Source: Fidelibacterota bacterium
GTDB taxonomy: Bacteria; Fidelibacterota; Marinisomatia; Marinisomatales; TCS56
Assembly: GCA_013203115.1 (NCBI GenBank)
Contig: JABMQW010000078.1
Location: 1 to 36,749, forward strand
Direction of reading: 5' to 3'
DNA length: 36,749 nucleotides
Positions 12,559 to 25,550 of the stretch are shown here, one piece after another (positions within the stretch are counted from its first letter, which is position 1; every line of letters begins with the position of its first letter). The notes below the pieces were generated by a model. That model was not told where the DNA came from and did no database searches. It saw only the letters and a list, made by a program, of their open reading frames with translations. The translations under genes and the position numbers were made by a program.

Positions 12559-13524
12559 TTGTATTTTAATATCTATGCACTGAAATCATTTAACCGATTG
12601 AGTGATATAGTATCGTCACGACCATTAATCGTCTTTTTGCTGATTTGTCAATTGTTTTTATTCATTGGTTGTTCACCTAAGCATTATATTATTGACCGCT
12701 TAAGTAGATCCATGGGATCTGCCACAGACGTATATTTATCAGAAAACGATCCTCAACTCGTCCGTGAGGCTTTTCCCTTCAATTTAAAAACAATCGAGAT
12801 GCTGGTTCAGCAGTCCCCGGATAATCCTGATTTACTAACTGCCGCGGCGTCCGGGTTCGCTCTTTACAGTTATGCCTTTATCCTTGAAGATGCCGAACGA
12901 ATGGCTGTAAAAAATGTCAGCTTAAGCCGACCGATTTTTAAACGTGCCCGAAAATTATTTGAGCGCAGTCGCGATTACGGTCTACGTGCCCTTGAAGCAA
13001 ATCATGCTGGTTTTATTAAACAATTTGAAAAAGATCCTGCAATGGCAGTTAATGTGCTCTCGGTGAAAGATATTTCGGCAATTTATTGGACAGCCGCTTC
13101 CATAGCAGGAGCTGTTACCACCAGTCAGGGTGACCCAATTTTGTTAATTGATCTTCCCAAGGTTGGCTATCTTTTTGAAAAAGCCTTCGAATTGAACCCT
13201 AATTGGAATGATGGAGCACTCTACAGCGCAATGATGAAGTATGAATTAAGCCGCCCGGATGCCAGCGCCCAATCAGTGGATATTGCTCGTGGTTATTATC
13301 AAAAAGCATTGGAATTGTCGGGGGGAATGGATTGCTCTTTATATGTTTCATATGCTGAAGCATTTTCAGTTAGAAATCAAAACCGTGAGGAATTTACTAC
13401 TTATATTAATTATGCTCTGGATGTGGATGTAGATGCGGTTCCTCAGAAAAGACTCTCTAATATTCTTGCACAAGACCGGGCCAATTGGCTGCTTCAACGG
13501 ATTGATGAACTTTTTTACTATTGA
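12559..13524 (+). CDS. TRAP transporter TatT-type TPR lipoprotein
   Basis: The 321-residue product has a hydrophobic signal ending in LFIGC (Cys about residue 38), then a helical domain resembling the TatT component of TPR-protein-associated TRAP transporters described in Treponema. Visible features are the long N-terminal helices with LTAAASGFALYSYAF and the later DAERMAVKNVSLSRPIFKRARKLFERSRDYGLRALE segment. TatT is thought to form a periplasmic trimer binding the substrate protein. The next two genes encode the binding protein and permease, completing the set. The start is uncertain: TTG 12559 opens the frame, but TTG 12598 would give a tidier signal peptide. It overlaps the next open frame at the stop codon. 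Confidence 0.85.
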   Translation: MYFNIYALKSFNRLSDIVSSRPLIVFLLICQLFLFIGCSPKHYIIDRLSRSMGSATDVYLSENDPQLVREAFPFNLKTIEMLVQQSPDNPDLLTAAASGFALYSYAFILEDAERMAVKNVSLSRPIFKRARKLFERSRDYGLRALEANHAGFIKQFEKDPAMAVNVLSVKDISAIYWTAASIAGAVTTSQGDPILLIDLPKVGYLFEKAFELNPNWNDGALYSAMMKYELSRPDASAQSVDIARGYYQKALELSGGMDCSLYVSYAEAFSVRNQNREEFTTYINYALDVDVDAVPQKRLSNILAQDRANWLLQRIDELFYY

Positions 13525-13532
13525 GCAATAAC

Positions 13533-14537
13533 ATGAAGAAAATTCGACCCTTATTGATACTTATTTTATCCGTTTTACTGCCGGCTAAGAAAACAATAAT
13601 CAAACTGGCAACTCTGGCCCCGCAAGGTTCCGATATGCATTCATTGATGGTAGAAATGGGACAACGCTGGACTGCAGCCACCGCTGGAGAAATAATTTTA
13701 AGAATTTATCCGAATGGTGTGGTTGGTGATGAAAGGGATATGATACGAAAAATTCGGATTGGCCAAATTCATGCTGCCGCTGTTAGCACCGAGGGATTAT
13801 CTGTTATTTCAACTGATGTTTATGGATTTTTAATACCGCTGTTATTTGAAGATTTTGATGATGTGGATTGGGTAAGAGATCGTATTACTCCTGAACTTGA
13901 AAAGGATTTTTACGAGAATGGATTTGTTATCCTCAACTGGGGTGATGTTGGTTGGGCTTATTGGTTTACCAGGGAACCATTGCGAACTCCAAATGACCTG
14001 AAAGGTATGCGAATATTTACTTGGGCCGGTGATTATGAGACTCCGGAATTATGGCGAAATGCCGGATATAAATCGGCGCAATTGGCTTACCTGGATGTAT
14101 TATCTGGGTTGCAAACCGGATTAATCGATGCTATAGCTACTCCACCGATAATTACCCTGGCCAATCAGTATTTTGGACCGGCAAACCATATGTTGGACAT
14201 GAAATGGGGGCTGGTAACGGGTGGTACTGTAATATATCGATCGGTGTGGGAAAAAATAAAACCCGAATACCGCGAAGCTATGATGACAATTGCTGAAGAA
14301 ATTGGACTTAAGCAGCAAAAGGTAAATCGTGAAATTGATGGTAAAGCGATTGAAACCATGCGGGAATACGGTTTAGAGATATATCATCCTAGTGTCAGTG
14401 AAAAGCAAGCCTGGATAGAGTTAACACGTTCCTTCTATCCTGATATACGCGGAAGTTTAATACCAACTGAAATTTTTGACCGTGTGATAAATTTGAAAGC
14501 GCTTAAAGATTCATTGGAAGCTGAGTCTGCGCAGTAA
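13533..14537 (+). CDS. TRAP transporter substrate-binding protein, DctP family (TatP-like)
   Basis: The 334-residue periplasmic binding protein has a short signal (about residues 1-18), then the DctP fold: KLATLAPQGSDMH at the start, IYPNGVVGDERDMIRKIRIGQIH, and LKGMRIFTWAGD. That last motif carries the Arg (about residue 160) which in many DctP proteins contacts a carboxylate ligand. No lipobox is evident. ATG 13533 is preferred over TTG 13521. It lies between a TatT-like lipoprotein and a fused QM permease, so it is the substrate-capture unit of a TPAT-type transporter. The ligand cannot be told from sequence; in Treponema a hydrophobic ligand has been proposed. Confidence 0.92.
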   Translation: MKKIRPLLILILSVLLPAKKTIIKLATLAPQGSDMHSLMVEMGQRWTAATAGEIILRIYPNGVVGDERDMIRKIRIGQIHAAAVSTEGLSVISTDVYGFLIPLLFEDFDDVDWVRDRITPELEKDFYENGFVILNWGDVGWAYWFTREPLRTPNDLKGMRIFTWAGDYETPELWRNAGYKSAQLAYLDVLSGLQTGLIDAIATPPIITLANQYFGPANHMLDMKWGLVTGGTVIYRSVWEKIKPEYREAMMTIAEEIGLKQQKVNREIDGKAIETMREYGLEIYHPSVSEKQAWIELTRSFYPDIRGSLIPTEIFDRVINLKALKDSLEAESAQ

Positions 14538-14548
14538 TCTCTGTTCGG

Positions 14549-16366
14549 ATGGTCGCCCCAAAAAAAATACATCTGCATTTTGCTGATCGATTGCGTTGGG
14601 GTGAAGATACCCTGGCATTATTAGTATTTTTTACGATCACTTTTTTGCCAGCCTTCGAGACTTTTTTACGTGCTGTACAGTTGCCAGGAATCCCATCCTC
14701 GGCAATTATAGTTCAGCATTTAACATTATGGATCGGATTTATTGGCGCCGTTTTGGCAACCCGTCAAAATAAATTATTATCCTTAACAACTCAACCACTT
14801 TTTAAGAAGGAAAAAAAGATCAAGCTAGGTCGCTGGTTGGCGAAAACCATTTCCTTCATGGTGGTCTTGGCACTTACTTGGGGTAGTTGGAAGCTTGTCC
14901 AAATTGAATTTCAATTTCCACGTAATTTAGCACCGGGTATTCCGATCTGGCTCGGTCAGGCAATCATGCCGCTTGGTTTTGGTTTGATCGCATTGCAGAT
15001 TTATATAAGCAGTTACAAAGATAGGTTGTTGCGTGCGACAATGGTGATGGTTCCTATTTTATTAATCGCGCTGGGGATGACGGGTTATTTCCAGGATAAT
15101 GTGTTGGTTATCATTGCCGGATTAACATTAATAATTACAGCTTTGATCTATGGTGCACCAATATTTGTTGGTCTTGGTGGAGCAGCGGTTCTGTTATTCT
15201 GGAGCTCCTATGTTCCTGTTTCTGCAATTCCTGCGGAAACCTATCGCATTGTTGTTTCTCCTACTTTACCAACCATTCCATTATTTACACTGGCAGGATA
15301 TCTACTGGCAGAAGGGGGAGCCTCCAAACGAATGCTTAAGCTCTTTAGAGCCTGTTTTGGATGGATTCCCGGTGGTACACCTGTAATGGTAGTGATTTTA
15401 TGTGGCTTTTTTACAACTTTGACCGGAGGATCGGGTGTTACAATCCTGGCCTTAGGTGCAATATTGGCACCATTATTAATTCAGGAAGGATACTCAAAAG
15501 TATTTGCCATCGGGCTGGTTACAGTCTCGGGATCATTGGGGTTATTATTTCCACCAAGTCTTCCGGCGATAATCTATGGAGTTACTGCAGGTGTTTCAGT
15601 AAAAAGTATTTTTATTGCCGGCTTAATCCCCGGCATTCTACTGGTTACGGCCATTGCTTTATGGGCTATCCGGCAGGGAAAAATCGATCATATTAAGCGC
15701 CGGCCGTTTGAAATAAAAAAAGTTCTGACAGTGTTGTGGGCTACAAAATGGGAAGCTATCATACCTATTGGTGTTCTTTTTGGAATATTTGGTGGTTTCA
15801 CGACACTTGTAGAAACGGCGGCGATGACGACAGTATATGTCTTATTTGTCGAAGTGTTTATTTACAGAGATTTAAAATTCAAGCAGATACCAAAGATAAT
15901 TATTAATTGTTCGACTCTAATCGGTGGAGTATTGATCATCTTGGGTGTTGCTATGGGCTTTACCAGCTATCTGGTGGATGCGCAAATTCCAATGCTATTA
16001 ATGGAATGGGTACAGGCGGTCGTATCGTCAAAATATGTATTTTTAATAATGCTTAATATATTTCTGCTGTTGGTGGGATGTCTGATGGATATTTTCTCGG
16101 CAATTATTGTGGTTGTACCATTAATTGCTCCCCTGGGTCTTTATTTCGGTATCGATCCGGTTCACCTCGGAATTATATTCATCGCCAACCTGGAATTAGG
16201 TTTTTTAACACCACCTGTTGGAATGAATTTATTTTTATCAGCATATAGATTTAATGAACCAATGCCAGTGATTTATAAAGCAACATTGCCCTTTTTTCTG
16301 GTAAGGTTAGCGGTGGTTATTGCGATTACCTATTTACCGATTCTTTCGCTGGGATTACTGCACTAA
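14549..16366 (+). CDS. TRAP transporter fused small and large permease (DctQM)
   Basis: The 605 residues are almost entirely membrane helices. The first about 190 residues are the DctQ-type small subunit, with the EDTLALLVFFTITFLPAFE helix and further helices. The remainder is the 12-helix DctM subunit, with GAPIFVGLGGAAVLLFW, PLFTLAGYLLAEGG, GGSGVTILALGAILAPLL, LFPPSLPAIIYG and the C-terminal NLELGFLTPPVGMNLFL. DctM symports sodium with the ligand delivered by the binding protein. The gene begins 11 bases after the binding-protein stop and closes the transporter operon. Q-M fusion is known in the TRAP family and is not a sign of error. Confidence 0.93.
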   Translation: MVAPKKIHLHFADRLRWGEDTLALLVFFTITFLPAFETFLRAVQLPGIPSSAIIVQHLTLWIGFIGAVLATRQNKLLSLTTQPLFKKEKKIKLGRWLAKTISFMVVLALTWGSWKLVQIEFQFPRNLAPGIPIWLGQAIMPLGFGLIALQIYISSYKDRLLRATMVMVPILLIALGMTGYFQDNVLVIIAGLTLIITALIYGAPIFVGLGGAAVLLFWSSYVPVSAIPAETYRIVVSPTLPTIPLFTLAGYLLAEGGASKRMLKLFRACFGWIPGGTPVMVVILCGFFTTLTGGSGVTILALGAILAPLLIQEGYSKVFAIGLVTVSGSLGLLFPPSLPAIIYGVTAGVSVKSIFIAGLIPGILLVTAIALWAIRQGKIDHIKRRPFEIKKVLTVLWATKWEAIIPIGVLFGIFGGFTTLVETAAMTTVYVLFVEVFIYRDLKFKQIPKIIINCSTLIGGVLIILGVAMGFTSYLVDAQIPMLLMEWVQAVVSSKYVFLIMLNIFLLLVGCLMDIFSAIIVVVPLIAPLGLYFGIDPVHLGIIFIANLELGFLTPPVGMNLFLSAYRFNEPMPVIYKATLPFFLVRLAVVIAITYLPILSLGLLH

Positions 16367-16568: not shown

Positions 16569-17927
16569 TTGAAGAATAAAACGTTCATGTTGTTCTTGTC
16601 AGCAATTATTTTTGTACTGTCCACAGTAGCAGCGCAAAGTGAAGCCGGAGCCATATTTCTTTTAATCTCACCAGGAGCCAGAGCAGGGGGTATGGGTGAG
16701 GCTCAGGTTGCCGTGGCCAATGACGCCTATGCCAGTTACTGGAATCCGGCCGGACTCGGTTTTCTGAAAGGATCAGAGTTAGCCTTGATGCACGTTAACT
16801 GGTTACCAAACCTGGCTGATGACCTTTATTATGAATTCATAGCCTATCGCAAACACATTCCCTATCTTGGTACACTGGGTGGCCATATTATTTATTTGAA
16901 TTTGGGTGAACAGAACCGCACCGGCGAACTGGCGGAGGATCTCGGTACTTTTACTACCTATATGTTAGCCTTTGCAGTTAGCTACAGTTCACTGCTTTCC
17001 TCGAACTCATCCCTGGGACTCAATGCTAAGATTTCCTATCAGCACTTAGCGGAAATAGGGACCGGCAGTGAAAGAGGAAAAGGTACTTCAACCGATATTG
17101 GATTTGATATAGGTTATATGCGTAAGGGTTTGTTTACACCCCGTTTGGATCTTGGAATAACTGTTACTAATATTGGGCCAAAAGTCGCTTTCATTGATGT
17201 TGCTCAGGCCGATCCCCAACCAACCAACTTTACTATTGGGTTTCAGTATCGTCTGGTCGATTCACCATATAATCGTCTGAGCCTGGTTTATGATGTGGAT
17301 AAAATGCTGGTGGCTTCCTACCCGGACATGGATTGGGATGGAGATGGGTTTGTCGGAAGATATGATAAGGATGGACATTCTTCGAAGGATTCGGAATATA
17401 ACCGGAATGGACAGCGGGAAACCGCTCACACCGATCCGATTTACCTGGCTATTTTTACTTCTTGGGTAGATGATTGGCTATTGGGGGGTGATGTAGACAT
17501 TGCCCCGTCTGGTCCGGATTCTGATGGTAAAATCGGTGGCTGGGAATGGACTGAAGACAAAGATGGAGACGGAATTGTTGATCCGGCAACTGAACTAAAA
17601 CCGACACCCGAGGGAATTGCTTATGGGGATGATGGGTATGGTATATATAATCAATACGGCCAGATAGAAGTCGGTACCGGTGATGAGCGGACAATAATGA
17701 ACGAGTTTGACAAACTGGTTCATAATATTGGAGTCGAATACTGGTATGCCAATAATTTTGCTTTAAGATTTGGTTATTATTATGACAAAACCGGTAAAAT
17801 CGGAAACTTTACACTTGGATTCGGTTTAAGGTTTGCCGGTTACGGCTTTGATTTCGGCTATATTGCCGGTAAGCCGGAGGACGCCTTATCCAACACGATG
17901 CGTTTCTCGATGAACATGGAATTTTAA
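16569..17927 (+). CDS. PorV/PorQ-family outer-membrane beta-barrel protein
   Basis: The 452 residues start with a signal peptide (cleavage likely after VAAQ, about residue 22). The family hallmark follows: FLLISPGARAGGMGEAQVAVANDAYASYWNPAGLGF, beginning at about residue 30. The remainder is beta-barrel-like and ends in aromatic strands (MRFSMNMEF). In Bacteroidota, PorV is the outer-membrane shuttle that takes cargo from the type IX translocon to the attachment complex. Unusual are Asp-rich calcium-loop-like inserts: DMDWDGDGFVGRYDKDG at about 253-270 and DKDGDGIVDP at about 329-338. Start is TTG with a strong GGAGG. The next gene encodes a protein with a T9SS-type tail, which fits a secretion role. 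Confidence 0.85.
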   Translation: MKNKTFMLFLSAIIFVLSTVAAQSEAGAIFLLISPGARAGGMGEAQVAVANDAYASYWNPAGLGFLKGSELALMHVNWLPNLADDLYYEFIAYRKHIPYLGTLGGHIIYLNLGEQNRTGELAEDLGTFTTYMLAFAVSYSSLLSSNSSLGLNAKISYQHLAEIGTGSERGKGTSTDIGFDIGYMRKGLFTPRLDLGITVTNIGPKVAFIDVAQADPQPTNFTIGFQYRLVDSPYNRLSLVYDVDKMLVASYPDMDWDGDGFVGRYDKDGHSSKDSEYNRNGQRETAHTDPIYLAIFTSWVDDWLLGGDVDIAPSGPDSDGKIGGWEWTEDKDGDGIVDPATELKPTPEGIAYGDDGYGIYNQYGQIEVGTGDERTIMNEFDKLVHNIGVEYWYANNFALRFGYYYDKTGKIGNFTLGFGLRFAGYGFDFGYIAGKPEDALSNTMRFSMNMEF

Positions 17928-17966: not shown

Positions 17967-20819
17967 ATGAAAAGCAGGATTATGTTCCTGTTATTAGCGT
18001 CAGTAGTGTGTCTGCTGCAGGGACAAGTTACCGGCGACCTGAAAATTGCCGCACTCCGGGTTTCATTTCATCCTGATCAGCACTCCGGAACAACCGGTAA
18101 TGGCCAATTCCTGATTGCTGCCGAATACGATACATGCGGTAATTATACAATCGATCCGCCACCGCATGACTCGCTCTATTTCCAAGCCCAACTAACAGCC
18201 ATCAATAATTACTACCGGCAGGTATCCTACAGCCATTTCGGTTTGGATATGATCAATTCAATCATTTTTCCCAAAGGGATCAATGCCAGTTATCAATTAT
18301 CCAATTCGATGTCATATTATCATCGTTATGGTGAGGAAGATAATCATGAACGACGACTAACGGAATTGCTGCGAGATGCCGTATCTAAAGCCTTTGAAAC
18401 TGATTCTATTGATTTCTCCGCTTTTGACCTGATTGTTGTCTTCCATGCCGGAATCGGGCAGGATTTTTCGTTACCCTATATTGATCCCACACCGGAGGAT
18501 ATTCCGTCCACCTATATTGATCCGGCCATGGTATATACGCATATCGGGAGTGAAGGTATTGTTGTCGGGGATTGTATAATTGAGAAGGGGATTATTTTAC
18601 CTGAGACACAGAATCATCTTTTATACGAGGACGCGGAAGATATATTTTATGGTGCCGCGGAACCCTGCGATTATCAATATGGATTGACCGGCACATTTGC
18701 TTTAATGCTGGGCTTTGCCACCGGATTGCCACCATTATGGAATATTGAAACCGGAAAAAGTGGTATTGGTGTTTTTGGTTTGATGGATCAGGGATCAAAT
18801 AATGGACGGGGGTTAATACCGGCGCCACCGGATGCCTGGACGCGTGTCTTAGCCGGTTGGGAGGAGCCGATTACTATTAACTCCGATTCTACGGTTGCCT
18901 TACCGGCACGAAGTTACAATAATATTTTAAAGGTGATAATAAATCAGGATGAGTATTTCCTGATTGAAAATCGTACCAACTGGATTCACGGCAATGTTAG
19001 TATTGATTCCCTGCGCAGGAAATTATATAACGAGGAAAAACAAATCCATCCCGATGATGCGCACGATCCACCGCTGGTGGAAATATTAATCGATTCGGTT
19101 GATGTTGTCATTGATGATTCGACCGGTGTGATTATATCCGTACCCGATTACGATCTCGGTTTGCCGGCCTCCGGTTTATTAATCTGGCACATCGATGAAC
19201 AAATAATCAGGAGCAAGCGGGCCGATTATGCCATTAATGCCGATCCTGATCTTAAAGGTGTTGATCTGGAAGAAGCGGACGGGGCTCAGGATTTAGGCTT
19301 TGCATCTATATTTTTATTTATCGATCCCTCCTCGGGATTATTTGTGGACATGTGGTATCAGGGAAATCCGGAATATGAGCGTCTTTATCCTGAACGGTCC
19401 GGCCAGCCGCTTGTGTTTGGTCCCTATACTTATCCCGATACCAGGTCCAACAATGGTGCAGCAACCTATATTAGTATCAACGATATTGGGCTACCAGGTG
19501 ATACGATGATATTTCGTGTCGATAATATCTTAATAGCTGATGATTTTCCGGATACAACCCTGCATATTCAATTGCTGGCGGATTTCACCGGAGACGGAAT
19601 TGTGGAGATAATCGGTGGTGGAGATTCATTATGGTGGTCTCCAATCGACACCGTGCAGAAAACCAACTTCTGGCCCTTGAAATCCAATGATTTTGAAGTG
19701 GTTGTAACTAATTATGATGCCGCATTGCCAAATCTGATACTCGTCAGCGACATTGGCGATTTAATCAAGGTGCAATCTTTTCAATTTCAGTCCTTTGACA
19801 AGCAATTTATTAGAAGCTGGTCGCAGATAATTGTGCTGGCCGGTTTTGACCGGATCGAAGGTAATGAATCCGCAAATTCAGTTCGCATTCATTTTGGCGA
19901 ACAGATTTATACGGCTGATTCAACTGAGACAATGGTGGAGGTAAATCCTTCGCCAAGCCTATACACGGAAATTGGTTATAATGCTGAAAACGGCAATTTA
20001 CCGAACGGTGTCTATTACGATGAAAACGGTGGATTAACAGTACTTGATGAAAATGGTTCAATTGTAGCGCAATTATCGCAGCCGGGGTTAAAAAATATTT
20101 CCGTTATCGATCTGGATCTGGATGGAAGGGCGGAAATTTTGTTAGTTGCTGATGATGGGAGCGTTGCTTGCTACAATACTAATCTGACCCTAGAAGCGGG
20201 TTTCCCGGTCGCAGCGAATGCCCATGAATTTATTCTGGCGCGCAATTTAGTTGGCGATATACATCCGGAATTAATAGTCTTGAATTCAAATGGTGAAATT
20301 CTTGTTATTGATTGGCGCGGTCAAATAATCTACCGCTTGGCTAATTCAATTGATAACACTTTGCAAATGGTCACTGATTTTCGTGGTCGTTCATCAATCA
20401 TTACCGAGTCAACAATCTGGTCATTCGATTCATTGACGGTTACTGATGGTAACGAATGGAATCGGCAGAATGGAAATACACTGAATGACCGAAAAATCCA
20501 TCTGGCAACCCAGGCTCAAGCACTTTCGTCACGATTATTTAATCCTGCGGGTACCTATGCCTATCCCAATCCTTCACGTGCTAATTATGTCAAGTTGCGT
20601 GTTTTTGTGGAATCGGCCGAGGAAATAATAATTAAAATCTATGATCTGGCCGGTTTGCATATTATTGACTTTCACCTTTCTGATCTTGTCCCCCATGAGG
20701 TGAATGAAATATCCTGGGATGTAACTAACGTAGAGTCTGGTGTTTACTTTGGATATCTGGAAGCGCGCAAAGGCAATGAAATTGAATCCGAAATACTGAA
20801 AATCGGTATAATTCATTAA
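17967..20819 (+). CDS. M6-like pseudo-metalloprotease with FG-GAP repeats and T9SS-type sorting domain
   Basis: The 950-residue product has a signal peptide (about 1-20), then a region laid out like M6 (immune-inhibitor-A-like) metalloproteases. The segment at residues 239-258 aligns with the M6 zinc site GTYAHE..GH.LGLPD, but the HEXXH positions read Leu246, Met247 and Phe250. The surrounding scaffold (SGIGVFGLMDQGS, PDAWTRVLAGWEEP) is kept. Residues about 535-800 hold FG-GAP/VCBS-like propeller strands such as DFTGDGIVEIIGGGD and DLDLDGRAEILLVADDG. Residues 864-950 form a C-terminal sorting domain beginning YPNPS and containing SGVYFGYLEA. It is probably an exported, catalytically inactive surface protein. 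It overlaps the next gene as TAATG. Confidence 0.8.
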   Translation: MKSRIMFLLLASVVCLLQGQVTGDLKIAALRVSFHPDQHSGTTGNGQFLIAAEYDTCGNYTIDPPPHDSLYFQAQLTAINNYYRQVSYSHFGLDMINSIIFPKGINASYQLSNSMSYYHRYGEEDNHERRLTELLRDAVSKAFETDSIDFSAFDLIVVFHAGIGQDFSLPYIDPTPEDIPSTYIDPAMVYTHIGSEGIVVGDCIIEKGIILPETQNHLLYEDAEDIFYGAAEPCDYQYGLTGTFALMLGFATGLPPLWNIETGKSGIGVFGLMDQGSNNGRGLIPAPPDAWTRVLAGWEEPITINSDSTVALPARSYNNILKVIINQDEYFLIENRTNWIHGNVSIDSLRRKLYNEEKQIHPDDAHDPPLVEILIDSVDVVIDDSTGVIISVPDYDLGLPASGLLIWHIDEQIIRSKRADYAINADPDLKGVDLEEADGAQDLGFASIFLFIDPSSGLFVDMWYQGNPEYERLYPERSGQPLVFGPYTYPDTRSNNGAATYISINDIGLPGDTMIFRVDNILIADDFPDTTLHIQLLADFTGDGIVEIIGGGDSLWWSPIDTVQKTNFWPLKSNDFEVVVTNYDAALPNLILVSDIGDLIKVQSFQFQSFDKQFIRSWSQIIVLAGFDRIEGNESANSVRIHFGEQIYTADSTETMVEVNPSPSLYTEIGYNAENGNLPNGVYYDENGGLTVLDENGSIVAQLSQPGLKNISVIDLDLDGRAEILLVADDGSVACYNTNLTLEAGFPVAANAHEFILARNLVGDIHPELIVLNSNGEILVIDWRGQIIYRLANSIDNTLQMVTDFRGRSSIITESTIWSFDSLTVTDGNEWNRQNGNTLNDRKIHLATQAQALSSRLFNPAGTYAYPNPSRANYVKLRVFVESAEEIIIKIYDLAGLHIIDFHLSDLVPHEVNEISWDVTNVESGVYFGYLEARKGNEIESEILKIGIIH

Positions 20820-23785
20820 TGCGGGTTCCTTTTTTTAACTATATTATATTGCTTATTTTTATCGGGTGTCAGTTATACGGTCAGTTGGATTATAACCACC
20901 CCGAACTTGAATGGCAGACGTTGGAAACAGAACATTTCCAGATTCATTTTTACCAGGCCACTGAAGGTACGGCCCGTGAAGGAGCTATCGTCGCGGAGAG
21001 AATCTATCCCCATGTGACCGGTTTGTATAACCACGAACCAAAAGAAAAAACCGATCTGGTATTTCTGGATACGGACGATTTTTCTAACGGTATGGCCTTT
21101 TATTATGATAATAAAATCTATATCTGGGCGACACCATTGGATTTTATATTGCGTGGTAGTCATCGCTGGCTGCAAAATGTCATTACCCACGAGTTTACTC
21201 ATATTGTATCGCTCCAGGCCGCTATGAAAGCCGGACTGAAAATGCCGGCAGCCTATCTACAGTTTATGGGTTATGAAAAGGAAAAGCGAAAGGATGTGCT
21301 TTACGGTTACCCTAATCGAATTATAAGTTATCCTATCCCTGGAACGGTTGTACCACCCTGGCTGGCAGAAGGGACAGCGCAATTTATGTATGAAGGTGCT
21401 GATTGGGATTTGTGGGACTCCCATCGCGATATGATCCTGCGTGACCAGGTTTTAAATGCTAAAATGCTCAGCCTGACTGAGATGAATACTTTTGGTAAAA
21501 AGGGAGTAGGTAACGAATCTATCTATAATTCCGGCTATGCCTTGACGAAATATATAGCAGCTACTTACGGCCATGATAAACTGCGTGAACTAATGCAGGA
21601 GCTGAGTCGTCCGCTGCAGTTTTCGATCAATAAGGCCATTTCCAATATCCTTGATGTTTCAGCCGATACACTGTATAATGATTTTAAAACTGTCGTTGAA
21701 AAACGTTATCATATTCTGACCGAGTCGGTGCAGGAGAAAAAAATTGAGGGTCGGGTAATCTGCTCCGCAGGAAGTGCTAATATTTTTCCGGTGTGGAACC
21801 CGGCCGGTGATAAATTTGCCTACATTTCTAATCAGGGCAACGATTACATGTCCCAAACCAGTTTGTATGTCTATAATCTGGATAGCGGTTCGGAAAAGAA
21901 GATTAGCAATAGGGTCAGACATGCTGCATCCTGGCATAGTAGCGGTGAGGTGATATACTATAATAAACGGGGAGAATTGCCGAACCGTTATGGCTCCAGT
22001 TATTTTGATATCTATGAATACGATCTGAAAACCGAGCAGGAAACACGGTTGACGAAGGATACCCGGGCCTATTCTCCGGTATTTATTTCCGGCGACAGCG
22101 CTATCGCTTATATTTCTTCATATGATGGTACGCAAAATATCTTCTATATGAATTTGAAAGATCGCTCGGTCGAGCAAATGACCGATTTTCATGACCGGCG
22201 GTCGGTTTATAGCCTGCATTACGATGCAGCATCACACCGCTTATTATATGATTACTCTGTGAATCACTTCCGCGATCTGGGATATTTGAATCTGGCAGAT
22301 ACAACCTTGGGGAATTTCATTAATAATGCTCAGTGGGATGAGCGGGATATGACTATTTCACGTTCCGGCGAAATTATTTATGCCGATGATAGAAGTGGGA
22401 TTTACAATTTGTATTATATTGATCCGGATAATAATCGTCAGGGGTATCTTACTAATGTGTTGGGCGGTGCTTTTATGCCTGATATTTCATCCGCGGGAAA
22501 GATTGTGTATTCCCTTTATGATGAACTGGGTTATAAGATAGCCATATTAGATTCAGTTGCTCTGATAGATCAGTTCGTTGTGGGCTATGATCCGGAGTTT
22601 TATCGTCGCAATGCCGATTTGACTGATCCAATTTTGGAAATGGATGAAACCGAAGCCGTCCCGTACGAAGATAATTTTACAACCATGTTCATTCTTCCCA
22701 AATTGATGTTGGAATACGGTACGTTGAAGCCGGGCATCTATTTTTATTCTTCCGAAGTTATTGAACGTTTATCACTCTTCGGACAGGCTTCAATTAATAA
22801 ATCAGCGGATCTCGATTTATTCCTGCTGTTTGAATTCAGCCGGTTATATCCCACCATCTATACTGAAATCATTTACTTAACACGTAATAAACATGAACAA
22901 AATTATTATTCGGTCTATCCAATAAATGATAATTTACGATTTCGTCTAATTCAATTCAGAGGGGGAGTAAAATTCCCGCTACTTGGTTTTAATGCAGTTG
23001 ATATTTTTCTAACCTGGCAGAGATATCGTGCCTATGTGAAGCAGGAAGTTCTATCGGAGGGATTGGAAGTTGGCGTTGCGTATGATTATTATCGCGGTAG
23101 TTATCTTGGTTTTAATTGGAGTGGGGACCTGCTGAAACGGCGCGCGGACAGTAATATTAATCCTTCAAAGGGTTTTGCCTATAATCTCAATGTTACCCTT
23201 GAGAAAAATAAATTTCTTAATAATTTGGATCTCTCCGATGCCGGGACTCTGGTTGAGGAATTCAATAATAATGATTTAGTGCGAGTCGAATTCGATACAG
23301 ACTATCATTTGGAGATACCATACACGCGTCGTTGGACATTATCATTTGAGGCTTTGGCCGGGTGGCTTTCAAATACCGAGGCCGATTCATTCTTCAATTT
23401 TTTTGGCGGAGGACTTCCAGGCTTGCAAGGATATCCATTTTACAGTATTGAGGGAAACCGGGTACTGACGGGCGAGCTGGTCATTCGCATACCATTGCTG
23501 TATCTTAAGAATTATCCGATTGGCTGGTTTAGTCTAAGTAACAGTACAATCGGATTTGTCGCCCAGGCCGGTGATGCCTGGAGTACGCCTTTGGGCAATA
23601 TCGATCCTAAGCGATCGGTGGGTTTGGAATTGCGTTTCAACGGATTTTCGTTCTATAATTATCCCACCGCAATTGGTTTAGAAGTTCACTATGGATTGGA
23701 TAAATTCGTACGGACTATCCAGGGAAATAATTATCATTATGGAAAGGAGCCACGCTTTTATGCCAGCATTTTATTCGGATTTTAA
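20819..23785 (+). CDS. Outer-membrane fusion: HEXXH protease, beta-propeller and Omp85-like barrel
   Basis: The 988 residues form three parts. After a signal peptide (about 1-21), residues 30-290 resemble the peptidase-MA gluzincin family, with zinc motif HEFTH (His124, Glu125, His128) and the downstream ligand in AEGTAQF (Glu184). Residues about 310-600 are TolB/PD40-like propeller blades such as NIFPVWNPAGDKFAYISN and AYSPVFISGDSAIAYIS. Residues about 630-988 are a beta-barrel ending in the aromatic FYASILFGF, with GLPGLQGYPF resembling the Omp85 lid-loop motif. The Cys in FIGC could alternatively mark a lipobox. It is probably an outer-membrane protein with an external or periplasmic protease; substrate unknown. 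The neighbouring M6-like cargo may be a partner. Confidence 0.78.
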   Translation: MRVPFFNYIILLIFIGCQLYGQLDYNHPELEWQTLETEHFQIHFYQATEGTAREGAIVAERIYPHVTGLYNHEPKEKTDLVFLDTDDFSNGMAFYYDNKIYIWATPLDFILRGSHRWLQNVITHEFTHIVSLQAAMKAGLKMPAAYLQFMGYEKEKRKDVLYGYPNRIISYPIPGTVVPPWLAEGTAQFMYEGADWDLWDSHRDMILRDQVLNAKMLSLTEMNTFGKKGVGNESIYNSGYALTKYIAATYGHDKLRELMQELSRPLQFSINKAISNILDVSADTLYNDFKTVVEKRYHILTESVQEKKIEGRVICSAGSANIFPVWNPAGDKFAYISNQGNDYMSQTSLYVYNLDSGSEKKISNRVRHAASWHSSGEVIYYNKRGELPNRYGSSYFDIYEYDLKTEQETRLTKDTRAYSPVFISGDSAIAYISSYDGTQNIFYMNLKDRSVEQMTDFHDRRSVYSLHYDAASHRLLYDYSVNHFRDLGYLNLADTTLGNFINNAQWDERDMTISRSGEIIYADDRSGIYNLYYIDPDNNRQGYLTNVLGGAFMPDISSAGKIVYSLYDELGYKIAILDSVALIDQFVVGYDPEFYRRNADLTDPILEMDETEAVPYEDNFTTMFILPKLMLEYGTLKPGIYFYSSEVIERLSLFGQASINKSADLDLFLLFEFSRLYPTIYTEIIYLTRNKHEQNYYSVYPINDNLRFRLIQFRGGVKFPLLGFNAVDIFLTWQRYRAYVKQEVLSEGLEVGVAYDYYRGSYLGFNWSGDLLKRRADSNINPSKGFAYNLNVTLEKNKFLNNLDLSDAGTLVEEFNNNDLVRVEFDTDYHLEIPYTRRWTLSFEALAGWLSNTEADSFFNFFGGGLPGLQGYPFYSIEGNRVLTGELVIRIPLLYLKNYPIGWFSLSNSTIGFVAQAGDAWSTPLGNIDPKRSVGLELRFNGFSFYNYPTAIGLEVHYGLDKFVRTIQGNNYHYGKEPRFYASILFGF

Positions 23786-24704
23786 AAAGATCATGATTCT
23801 GGTTATACTTTTCTCTGTCAGCAATTTAATGGCCGACGGCTTATTTCACTATGATGCGCGCCTGCATTCACCTTTGACCAATCAACTGGTTAGAATTAAT
23901 GCCGGGTTAAGCAGTGCCCTGGCAGCATTAGAAACAGACTCAGCTGCTGTTACTGAAGAAATTGTGTTTCCCGCCCGACCCATGTTGATGTCTTTGATTG
24001 TTCCGGGATTAGGACAAGTTTACAATAAATCACCCTGGTGGAAAACGGCCATCTTCGCAGGCGTCGAAGTTGCTGGAATAGTGGGCTGGTGGTCATTCAC
24101 CAATAAAGCGGAAGATAAACGATTGGAGTATGAGGAATTTGCGGATCTGCACTGGGATCTGGAGCGTTGGTACAGTAATTCCCAATTAATATTTGGTGAT
24201 GATTGGGAGAGTGTTATTCGCGGTACTCATCACCTCACGCTTATTATTAATGATCAATATTGGAGTTCAGATACAATTGTTTACCTTCAGTCGGTATATA
24301 ATTTTAATGAAATTGATTGGGCGCATGATCGCGATTATTATGAAAATATCGGCAAGTATAACCAATTTGTTGGGGGCTGGGATGATCCTTTTGATGATCC
24401 TGATGATTCTGAAGGAAATTGGTATACGGTTGAGAAAGATGTCGGTGACAGCACCGAAAATATTATCATGACTGTTAATAAGGATAAATATCTGGATATG
24501 CGTCTTGAAAATAATGATTTACTGAAAATTGCCGGATATGCCGTAACGGCCGTGATGTTCAACCATGTAATCAGTGCAATAGAAGCCGTGTATTCATCTC
24601 AGTCGCAGGCCCGAAAAAGAAACACTGACACATCGGTGGGATTAATCTACGACCGTAATGCTCGTTACGGTGTGGGTGGTTTGGCTTTTTCAATGCGATT
24701 CTAA
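23760..24704 (+). CDS. DUF5683-type membrane protein
   Basis: The product is about 314 residues from ATG 23760, preceded by AAAGGAG about 11 bases upstream; the frame stays open back to 23691, inside the previous gene, but that start is unlikely. It has a signal or membrane segment near residues 12-28, then the DUF5683 hallmark PARPMLMSLIVPGLGQVYN followed by WWKTAIFAGVEVAGIVGWW (about 71-110). A long acidic Trp/Tyr/Asp-rich loop and a second hydrophobic segment (AGYAVTAVMFNHVISAIEAV) follow, and it ends FSMRF. DUF5683 proteins are common in the FCB group and have no settled function. Overlap with the fusion gene implies co-expression. Confidence 0.75.
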   Translation: MPAFYSDFKKIMILVILFSVSNLMADGLFHYDARLHSPLTNQLVRINAGLSSALAALETDSAAVTEEIVFPARPMLMSLIVPGLGQVYNKSPWWKTAIFAGVEVAGIVGWWSFTNKAEDKRLEYEEFADLHWDLERWYSNSQLIFGDDWESVIRGTHHLTLIINDQYWSSDTIVYLQSVYNFNEIDWAHDRDYYENIGKYNQFVGGWDDPFDDPDDSEGNWYTVEKDVGDSTENIIMTVNKDKYLDMRLENNDLLKIAGYAVTAVMFNHVISAIEAVYSSQSQARKRNTDTSVGLIYDRNARYGVGGLAFSMRF

Positions 24705-24749
24705 AAAATATTCCTGACACTGAAAAATATTGAAATTCGTGGAAAATTG

Positions 24750-25550
24750 ATGAAAAAAACTTTAATTAAGGTAATAATTAAACAGGTTATTGCAGCATTA
24801 TTAATTCTCTCGGTGGCTATGTTTTCTTTTCAATGTGCCTCTAATAAACCGGATATCGGTAATTTTGATGGAAAAGATAATTATGAAAAAGGGCTTAAAC
24901 TGCTGAAGAAAAAACGCTATTTGCGTGCCCAGGAGGAATTAAATCAGGCTGTGATAAGCGGAGCTCATACAGAATGGGGCGATACTGCCGCTTTTTATCT
25001 GTCGGAAGCTTATTATCTCAATAAGGAGTATCTACTGGCTATTTCAGAATATGAACGTATGATTCGGCGAATGCCTTTTACTACCTTTATGGAACGTGCC
25101 CGTTATCGGATTTGCGAGTGTTATCAAGCTGAATCGCCTGTTTATTATCACGATCAGACCTATACGTTAAAAGCAATCGATGAGATCCAGGAATTTTTAG
25201 ATGACTTTCCAGATTCGGAATTTAGGGCAGATGCCTTAGCGATGAATCGGCAATTACGTGAAAAACTGGGACGTAAAGCCTATGAGACAGGTATTCTTTA
25301 CCTGAAAATGGACGAACCGGAACCAGCCCGAATGGCTTTCCAGGAAGTCGTTAATAACTATTATGATACTAATTATAATGAATTGGCACATTTGGAAATT
25401 GTCCATTCTTTTTGCATTAATAATGATGTAGAATCAGCCCAAACGTATTTAGAAGAAGAATTTTCGGTATTCAAATCAGAAACGATTAGAAAAAAAGCTG
25501 AGAATTATATTGCGGATACTAAAAAAACTATACAAAAACGTGCCAAATGA
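24750..25550 (+). CDS. bamD: Outer-membrane assembly lipoprotein BamD
   Basis: BamD is the TPR lipoprotein of the BAM complex that inserts outer-membrane beta-barrels. The 266-residue product has a signal ending in SFQC (Cys about residue 28) and TPR pairs: NYEKGLKLLKKKRYLRAQEEL, AAFYLSEAYYLNKEYLLAISEYERMIRRMP, and the YfiO-like ARYRICECYQAESPVYYHDQTYTLKAIDEIQEFLDDFPDSEF pattern broken here by hydrophilic turns. That last pattern, with its DQ...A...F.......P...Y/F spacing, is diagnostic. Length is close to E. coli BamD (245). ATG 24750 is chosen over the TTG three bases earlier. It overlaps nadD by four bases (ATGA). Confidence 0.9.
   Translation: MKKTLIKVIIKQVIAALLILSVAMFSFQCASNKPDIGNFDGKDNYEKGLKLLKKKRYLRAQEELNQAVISGAHTEWGDTAAFYLSEAYYLNKEYLLAISEYERMIRRMPFTTFMERARYRICECYQAESPVYYHDQTYTLKAIDEIQEFLDDFPDSEFRADALAMNRQLREKLGRKAYETGILYLKMDEPEPARMAFQEVVNNYYDTNYNELAHLEIVHSFCINNDVESAQTYLEEEFSVFKSETIRKKAENYIADTKKTIQKRAK

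Follow-up and report, generated by a model that had tools for sequence, protein, structure and literature searches.

Organization of the locus

The window is the whole stretch of DNA analysed, 36,749 nucleotides of contig JABMQW010000078.1, and the features described below between 16569 and 25550 lie on its forward strand. The gene under study (20819..23785) starts with ATG and encodes a protein of 988 residues, opposite to which only short unsupported open reading frames are found. The one-base overlap with the preceding gene (17967..20819), claimed in a preliminary description of this DNA, is real: the final base of the stop codon of that gene is the first base of the gene under study.

The preceding gene encodes a pseudoprotease of 950 residues, a T9SS (type IX secretion system)-dependent M6-like inactivated metalloprotease, here M6i. 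It was identified with NF052323 (1.4e-125, 420.6 bits, the curated cut-off of 600 not being reached), and by its sequence it appears to resemble this family, with a dead M6 domain and a T9SS tail, but as a divergent relative. The tail is a type A C-terminal sorting domain at residues 866-939 (20562..20783), above the cut-offs of PF18962 (1.3e-6) and TIGR04183 (1.3e-5). HExxH is absent in all 38 full-length M6i sequences, and the motif region is conserved in them as T-G-T-F-A-L-x-x-G. The inactive M6-like cargo proposed earlier as the neighbour of the protease is thus borne out.

The conserved cluster to which both genes belong is headed by a PorV/PorQ-family outer-membrane protein of the T9SS shuttle family (16569..17927; NF033709 3.9e-72, PF19572 1.1e-24). 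Downstream of the gene under study are a DUF5683 protein (23691..24704; PF18935 1.6e-7), with a mechanical start that overlaps the preceding gene and a true start probably further downstream, near 23780, and BamD/YfiO (24747..25550; TIGR03302 9e-31, above cut-off). A TRAP transporter cluster (TatT, DctP and a fused DctQM; 12559-16366) lies directly upstream of the PorV gene. This adjacency is found throughout the window's own order, including the genus g11 described below, and an obvious link of the transporter to the T9SS is absent.

Conservation of the gene pair

The window belongs to a genome of the phylum Marinimicrobia. Of 245 genomes of this phylum, 221 have a match to the 988-residue protein at 1e-10 or better, the majority at full length. 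The alignment comprises 67 distinct orthologues, most of them 35-65% identical to the query protein. A search of plasmids for homologues found none, and a scan of a genome collection with the single protein as query, which detects close relatives only, gave three relatives, all of them Marinimicrobia.

The order PorV, M6i, peptidase/propeller/barrel gene (here the 20819-type gene), DUF5683, BamD and NadD was identified in 43 loci from 23 families, as far as the contigs reach, and four further loci of a divergent family (f30) have the same order. In two phylum-wide hit lists M6i and the 20819-type gene are adjacent on one strand in 96 pairs. In the remainder 16 pairs end at a contig end and 37 have the second hit unlisted or on another contig, 13 of the latter being adjacent in the retrieved loci. 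The sole pair with the two genes far apart is a joined or masked assembly. Gene splits in two genomes (G184 and G186; L105-L107) were rejected as counter-examples, since the breaks coincide with stretches of N and the assemblies are joined or masked; both are low-completeness single-contig assemblies with such stretches inside genes, the 20819-type gene among them, and their splits are untrustworthy. In another genome (G133) part of the locus is present twice, in very similar form, on two contigs (L075 on C44 and L076 on C51); a mixed bin or overlapping contigs are the probable cause. The two genes are therefore neighbours in essentially every informative genome examined, with no real counter-example, and the pairing put up for testing in the preliminary description is not refuted by the neighbourhood data. 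The spacing from M6i to the 20819-type gene is mostly between -4 and +11 bases, an overlap of 1-4 bases or a distance within about 10 being usual, and this tight spacing makes translational coupling likely.

Domain plan of the protein

The chain is formed, in this order, by a signal peptide, a gluzincin zinc-peptidase domain, a TolB-type propeller and a 16-stranded Omp85 barrel. The AlphaFold2 model, for which 55 orthologues were used, has a mean pLDDT of 91.4 and a pTM of 0.89. Together with domain and structure matches it bears out the earlier reading of three domains in one chain, and the sequence elements on which that reading was based (HEFTH at 124-128, AEG with Glu184 and the C-terminal FGF) are all present in the translation.

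The signal peptide comprises about residues 1-21 (20819..20881) and was placed from the N-termini of the orthologues, where a hydrophobic leader, frequently ending in (S/G)Q, directly precedes the common N-terminal motif YNHPELxW. A lipoprotein was ruled out: Cys17 is not conserved and the orthologues have no conserved lipobox cysteine.

The peptidase domain comprises residues 22-306 (20882..21736). Peptidase_MA_2 (PF13485) matches it above the Pfam cut-off and was seen in 45 of 47 members, and the NCBIfam flagellinolysin HExxH model also matches significantly, below its equivalog cut-off. Modelled alone, the domain has a pLDDT of 87.8 and its closest fold is that of M30 lugdulysin (Z 16.2, 236 aligned, rmsd 4.7); the next matches, likewise gluzincins, are the collagenases of family M9 at a Z of about 14 and the aminopeptidases of family M1 at about 13. 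By motif and fold, HExxH with a downstream Glu in a thermolysin-like fold, the domain belongs to the gluzincins of the Peptidase MA group. It is also the best conserved part of the chain, with a mean consensus fraction of 0.71-0.76 vs 0.44-0.62 in the rest.

The zinc site is formed by the HEFTH motif (residues 124-128, 21188..21202) and by Glu184, the third ligand, in an invariant A-E-G (21368..21370). H124, E125, F126, H128, A183, E184 and G185 are identical in 67 of 67 orthologues, a conservation far above chance. The complete zinc site claimed before is in accordance with this, since HExxH and Glu184 never vary, and the protease is probably active. Tyr236 (21524..21526), invariant in alignments A1 and A2, is a candidate transition-state tyrosine; judging from the spacing and with the hairpin described next discounted, it presumably stands where M30 and M1 enzymes carry theirs. 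The hairpin is an insert of residues 144-174 (21248..21340) between HExxH and the Glu ligand, present in the DSSP assignments of both models and containing the invariant Q148, E153 and P165. Many of the BamA and TamA alignments of the model start at residue 140-144, in this hairpin. The hairpin might be situated close to the seam of the barrel; the alignment ranges give only the first and last aligned residues.

The propeller comprises residues 308-583 (21740..22567). TIGR02800, the NCBIfam model of TolB, matches residues 312-456 at 1.5e-15, below the equivalog cut-off, and a sequence-profile search of the protein family gave TolB at 3e-10. TolB structures were matched at Z of about 24-25, up to 24.9 (239 aligned, rmsd 2.7).

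The barrel comprises residues 624-988 (22688..23782) and its 16 strands were assigned from the AlphaFold2 model, the DSSP count and structure matches, the best being BamA (Z 22.6) and TamA (Z 21.3). The sequence-profile search of the family also gave TamA, weakly (0.2) but collinearly. The barrel expected at the C-terminus is therefore predicted, and resembles BamA and TamA; the domain searches gave Peptidase_MA_2 in Pfam and TolB in NCBIfam, and Omp85 (PF01103) was not found in this protein at E<=1, whereas both paralogues of the same genome match it. There are no POTRA domains in the model, where residues 22-583 are peptidase domain and propeller and are followed by a linker to the barrel, and for this lack the protein is neither a BamA nor a TamA.

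Most extracellular loops of the modelled barrel are short. The exception is a long loop (residues 851-880) between strands 11 and 12 with the Omp85 loop-6 motif, here GGLPGLQGY (23408..23434). The place is conserved in the orthologues as (L/I)(K/Q/R)GY, the canonical form being VRGF/Y. In 47 of 66 orthologues the canonical arginine has given way to Lys and in 10 to Gln, a replacement in 57, whereas 9 retain Arg, and the position of its aspartate partner in strand 13 (Gln916) is Gln in 59, Glu in 6 and Asp in none.

Paralogues and related systems

Two paralogues were identified in the same genome. The first (L091:3218-6400, 1060 residues, contig C218) has PD40, Omp85 and Peptidase_MA_2 above cut-offs; the second (L092:8546-11344, 932 residues, contig C120) exceeds the cut-offs for Omp85 and Peptidase_MA_2 and falls just short of that for PD40. 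Their PF01103 E-values are 1.7e-13 and 1.2e-9, respectively. Both share with the 988-residue protein the three domains and an active-looking HELVH...EG, and differ from it in having no M6i neighbour, a canonical VRG or LRG loop 6 with the strand-13 Asp of the 'DxG', a much shorter spacing from HExxH to Glu and no hairpin. The altered Arg/Asp pair and the inserted hairpin make the orthologue group a derived one, not merely another copy. One paralogue adjoins LpxH-like and RadA-like genes, and the other is next to a gene for a BamB-like propeller. Every tested genome of genus g11 keeps a paralogue of about 1040 residues, and this survivor may be the more essential member of the family.

The components are individually well known. 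M30 lugdulysin, M9 collagenase and M1 enzymes have the fold and the order of the zinc site in common with the 988-residue protein, at 8-15% identity, and none of them is anchored by a barrel. TolB of the Tol-Pal system has the same propeller but is a free periplasmic protein with an N-terminal domain of its own. BamA and TamA have the same 16-strand barrel, whereas here protease and propeller take the place of POTRA and other residues that of the Arg-Asp pair of loop 6. BepA is an M48 zinc protease with TPR that acts at the BAM complex on the periplasmic side of the outer membrane; the working principle proposed below is alike, but BepA belongs to another peptidase family, has TPR instead of a propeller and lacks a barrel of its own. 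T9SS genes have also been noted at the bamA locus of Bacteroidota, where the BAM complex has novel subunits, and the passages of that work on BAM describe no protease-propeller-barrel protein (PMC12611786).

The closest precedent is the WD40-Omp85 subfamily of Heinz and Lithgow (2014; PMC4104836), in which a TolB-like propeller precedes an Omp85 barrel with no POTRA, a definition under which the 988-residue protein falls. The main text of that paper names no gluzincin domain, its 'Metallo' group being PF00149. Since this subfamily is known and the genome itself encodes two paralogues, the three-domain architecture is not unique; what sets the orthologue group apart from WD40-Omp85 is the altered loop-6/strand-13 pair and the fixed T9SS pseudoprotease neighbour. 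A literature search for peptidase-MA/Omp85 fusions or T9SS pseudoproteases found nothing pertinent besides PMC4104836.

Loss of the block in genus g11

Genus g11, of family f9, comprises streamlined genomes of about 0.4-1.0 Mb, and M6i is absent from it. Among the 94 most complete genomes 11 lack M6i, and the same 11 lack any match to the 988-residue protein better than 1e-24. In eight of eight g11 loci the order is TRAP genes, PorV, BamD and NadD, with M6i, the 20819-type gene and DUF5683 cleanly missing as a block. A search for DUF5683 elsewhere in these genomes found none in 10 of 11 and one weak partial hit in the remaining one. With the peptidase-domain profile only one protein was identified in the tested g11 genomes, which belongs with the paralogues and is about 970-1067 residues long, and no 20819-type orthologue. 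Judged from these searches, the genus has kept one tripartite-type protein and has lost precisely the one linked to M6i. This loss belongs to one lineage and hence is one evolutionary event. The gene pair of protease and pseudoprotease put forward in the preliminary description is accordingly conserved, and one lineage has lost it as a whole, but the unit extends beyond these two genes to DUF5683.

The complement of T9SS elements differs between the two groups of genomes. Proteins with a T9SS tail number 2-4 per genome in g11, 10-30 in small or incomplete block-bearing genomes (1.0-1.6 Mb) and at least 73-81 in large block-bearing genomes; the genus has thus lost almost all of its T9SS cargo. 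The model of the PorU sortase matches little outside the tail region in the four g11 genomes tested, with no full match in any; it is above cut-off in eight of 10 block-bearing genomes tested, and those of 1.0-1.3 Mb also mostly contain PorU. Of 24 g11 genomes, all of them without the block, 19 retain SprA. BamD and a shortened PorV are also kept in the genus. The 988-residue protein would be tied to the T9SS by this genomic association.

Two roles were discarded on these grounds. That the protease stands in for a missing PorU was rejected, this sortase being present in most of the block-bearing genomes tested, so that the protease is not needed as a sortase. The block as core T9SS was also rejected: SprA and PorV persist without it, and therefore the block does not belong to the core channel. 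The type IX system of g11 is a minimal one (SprA, a short PorV, 2-4 tails and no full PorU in the four genomes tested) and may attach or release its cargo differently.

Proposed function and alternatives

A chain with an export signal, a conserved gluzincin site and three domains, linked to M6i and lost jointly with it, is read here as a periplasm-facing zinc endopeptidase anchored in the outer membrane, which would form with M6i and DUF5683 a T9SS-linked module for processing or quality control; the chances that this is right are about even. Because the number of strands is even and the barrel is homologous to Omp85, both of its ends would be periplasmic, and the protease and the propeller would hang below the outer membrane on the periplasmic side. 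The propeller, by analogy with TolB and BamB, would recruit clients or partners, and the protease would trim or remove clients on their way to the surface via the type IX system. The exported M6i would be a dedicated partner of the protease, that is, a client, a regulator or a surface cap. The functional picture is that of a counterpart of the BAM-associated BepA that is linked to the T9SS and held in place by a barrel of its own. The fixed adjacency and the joint loss, both read from gene content, suggest that the two proteins work together, and the co-loss in g11 could also be general streamlining of surface functions, since this genus has lost much else.

A general role in outer-membrane biogenesis, in which the barrel is an Omp85 insertase or translocase, the propeller stands in for BamB, the protease degrades stalled barrels, M6i is mere operon company and BamD is the meaningful neighbour, is considered rather unlikely. 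The loop-6 motif of the barrel and the position of DUF5683 and BamD directly downstream are in its favour, as is the proposal that WD40-Omp85 proteins resemble a fusion of BamA and BamB (PMC4104836). However, g11 retains BamD while losing the 20819-type gene along with M6i, and retains another tripartite paralogue; furthermore, the canonical Arg-Asp pair is changed in this protein and intact in the paralogues, and POTRA domains are absent.

Two other alternatives concern the place and the activity of the protease, and both seem improbable. In one of them the barrel carries its own N-terminal part to the surface, as proposed for the patatin-Omp85 protein PlpD, and the protease meets M6i there. 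Enzyme-Omp85 fusions have precedent (PMC4104836) and M6i bears a surface-export signal, but the two folded domains ahead of the barrel are large (about 560 residues), the extracellular loops are mostly short, and 16 strands with Omp85 homology put both ends in the periplasm. In the other the zinc site is structural or serves another reaction, the chain being chiefly an anchor at which M6i docks; Peptidase_MA_2 is a superfamily broad enough to accommodate this, yet the invariance extends beyond the zinc ligands to the general base E125 and to Tyr236, and the closest folds are active peptidases.

The preferred reading of a periplasm-facing endopeptidase can be extended, as a tentative proposal, to a previously undescribed accessory module of the T9SS throughout the phylum. 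In it a remodelled barrel would carry its own zinc protease, which would be controlled by the co-translated M6i or would mature it, the two acting on either side of the outer membrane and DUF5683 being a third member.

On the sequence searches made, the pair is found across almost the whole phylum Marinimicrobia. The new part is the locus, with its fixed pairing of a protease and a pseudoprotease and the deletion of the block in one lineage. The fusion of propeller and barrel has been on record since 2014 with no function assigned to it, and one orthologue group now has a fixed partner, a locus and a natural deletion. The hypotheses that follow can be tested: some WD40-Omp85 proteins would be outer-membrane proteases, and one of them would serve type IX secretion and work with a secreted pseudoprotease.
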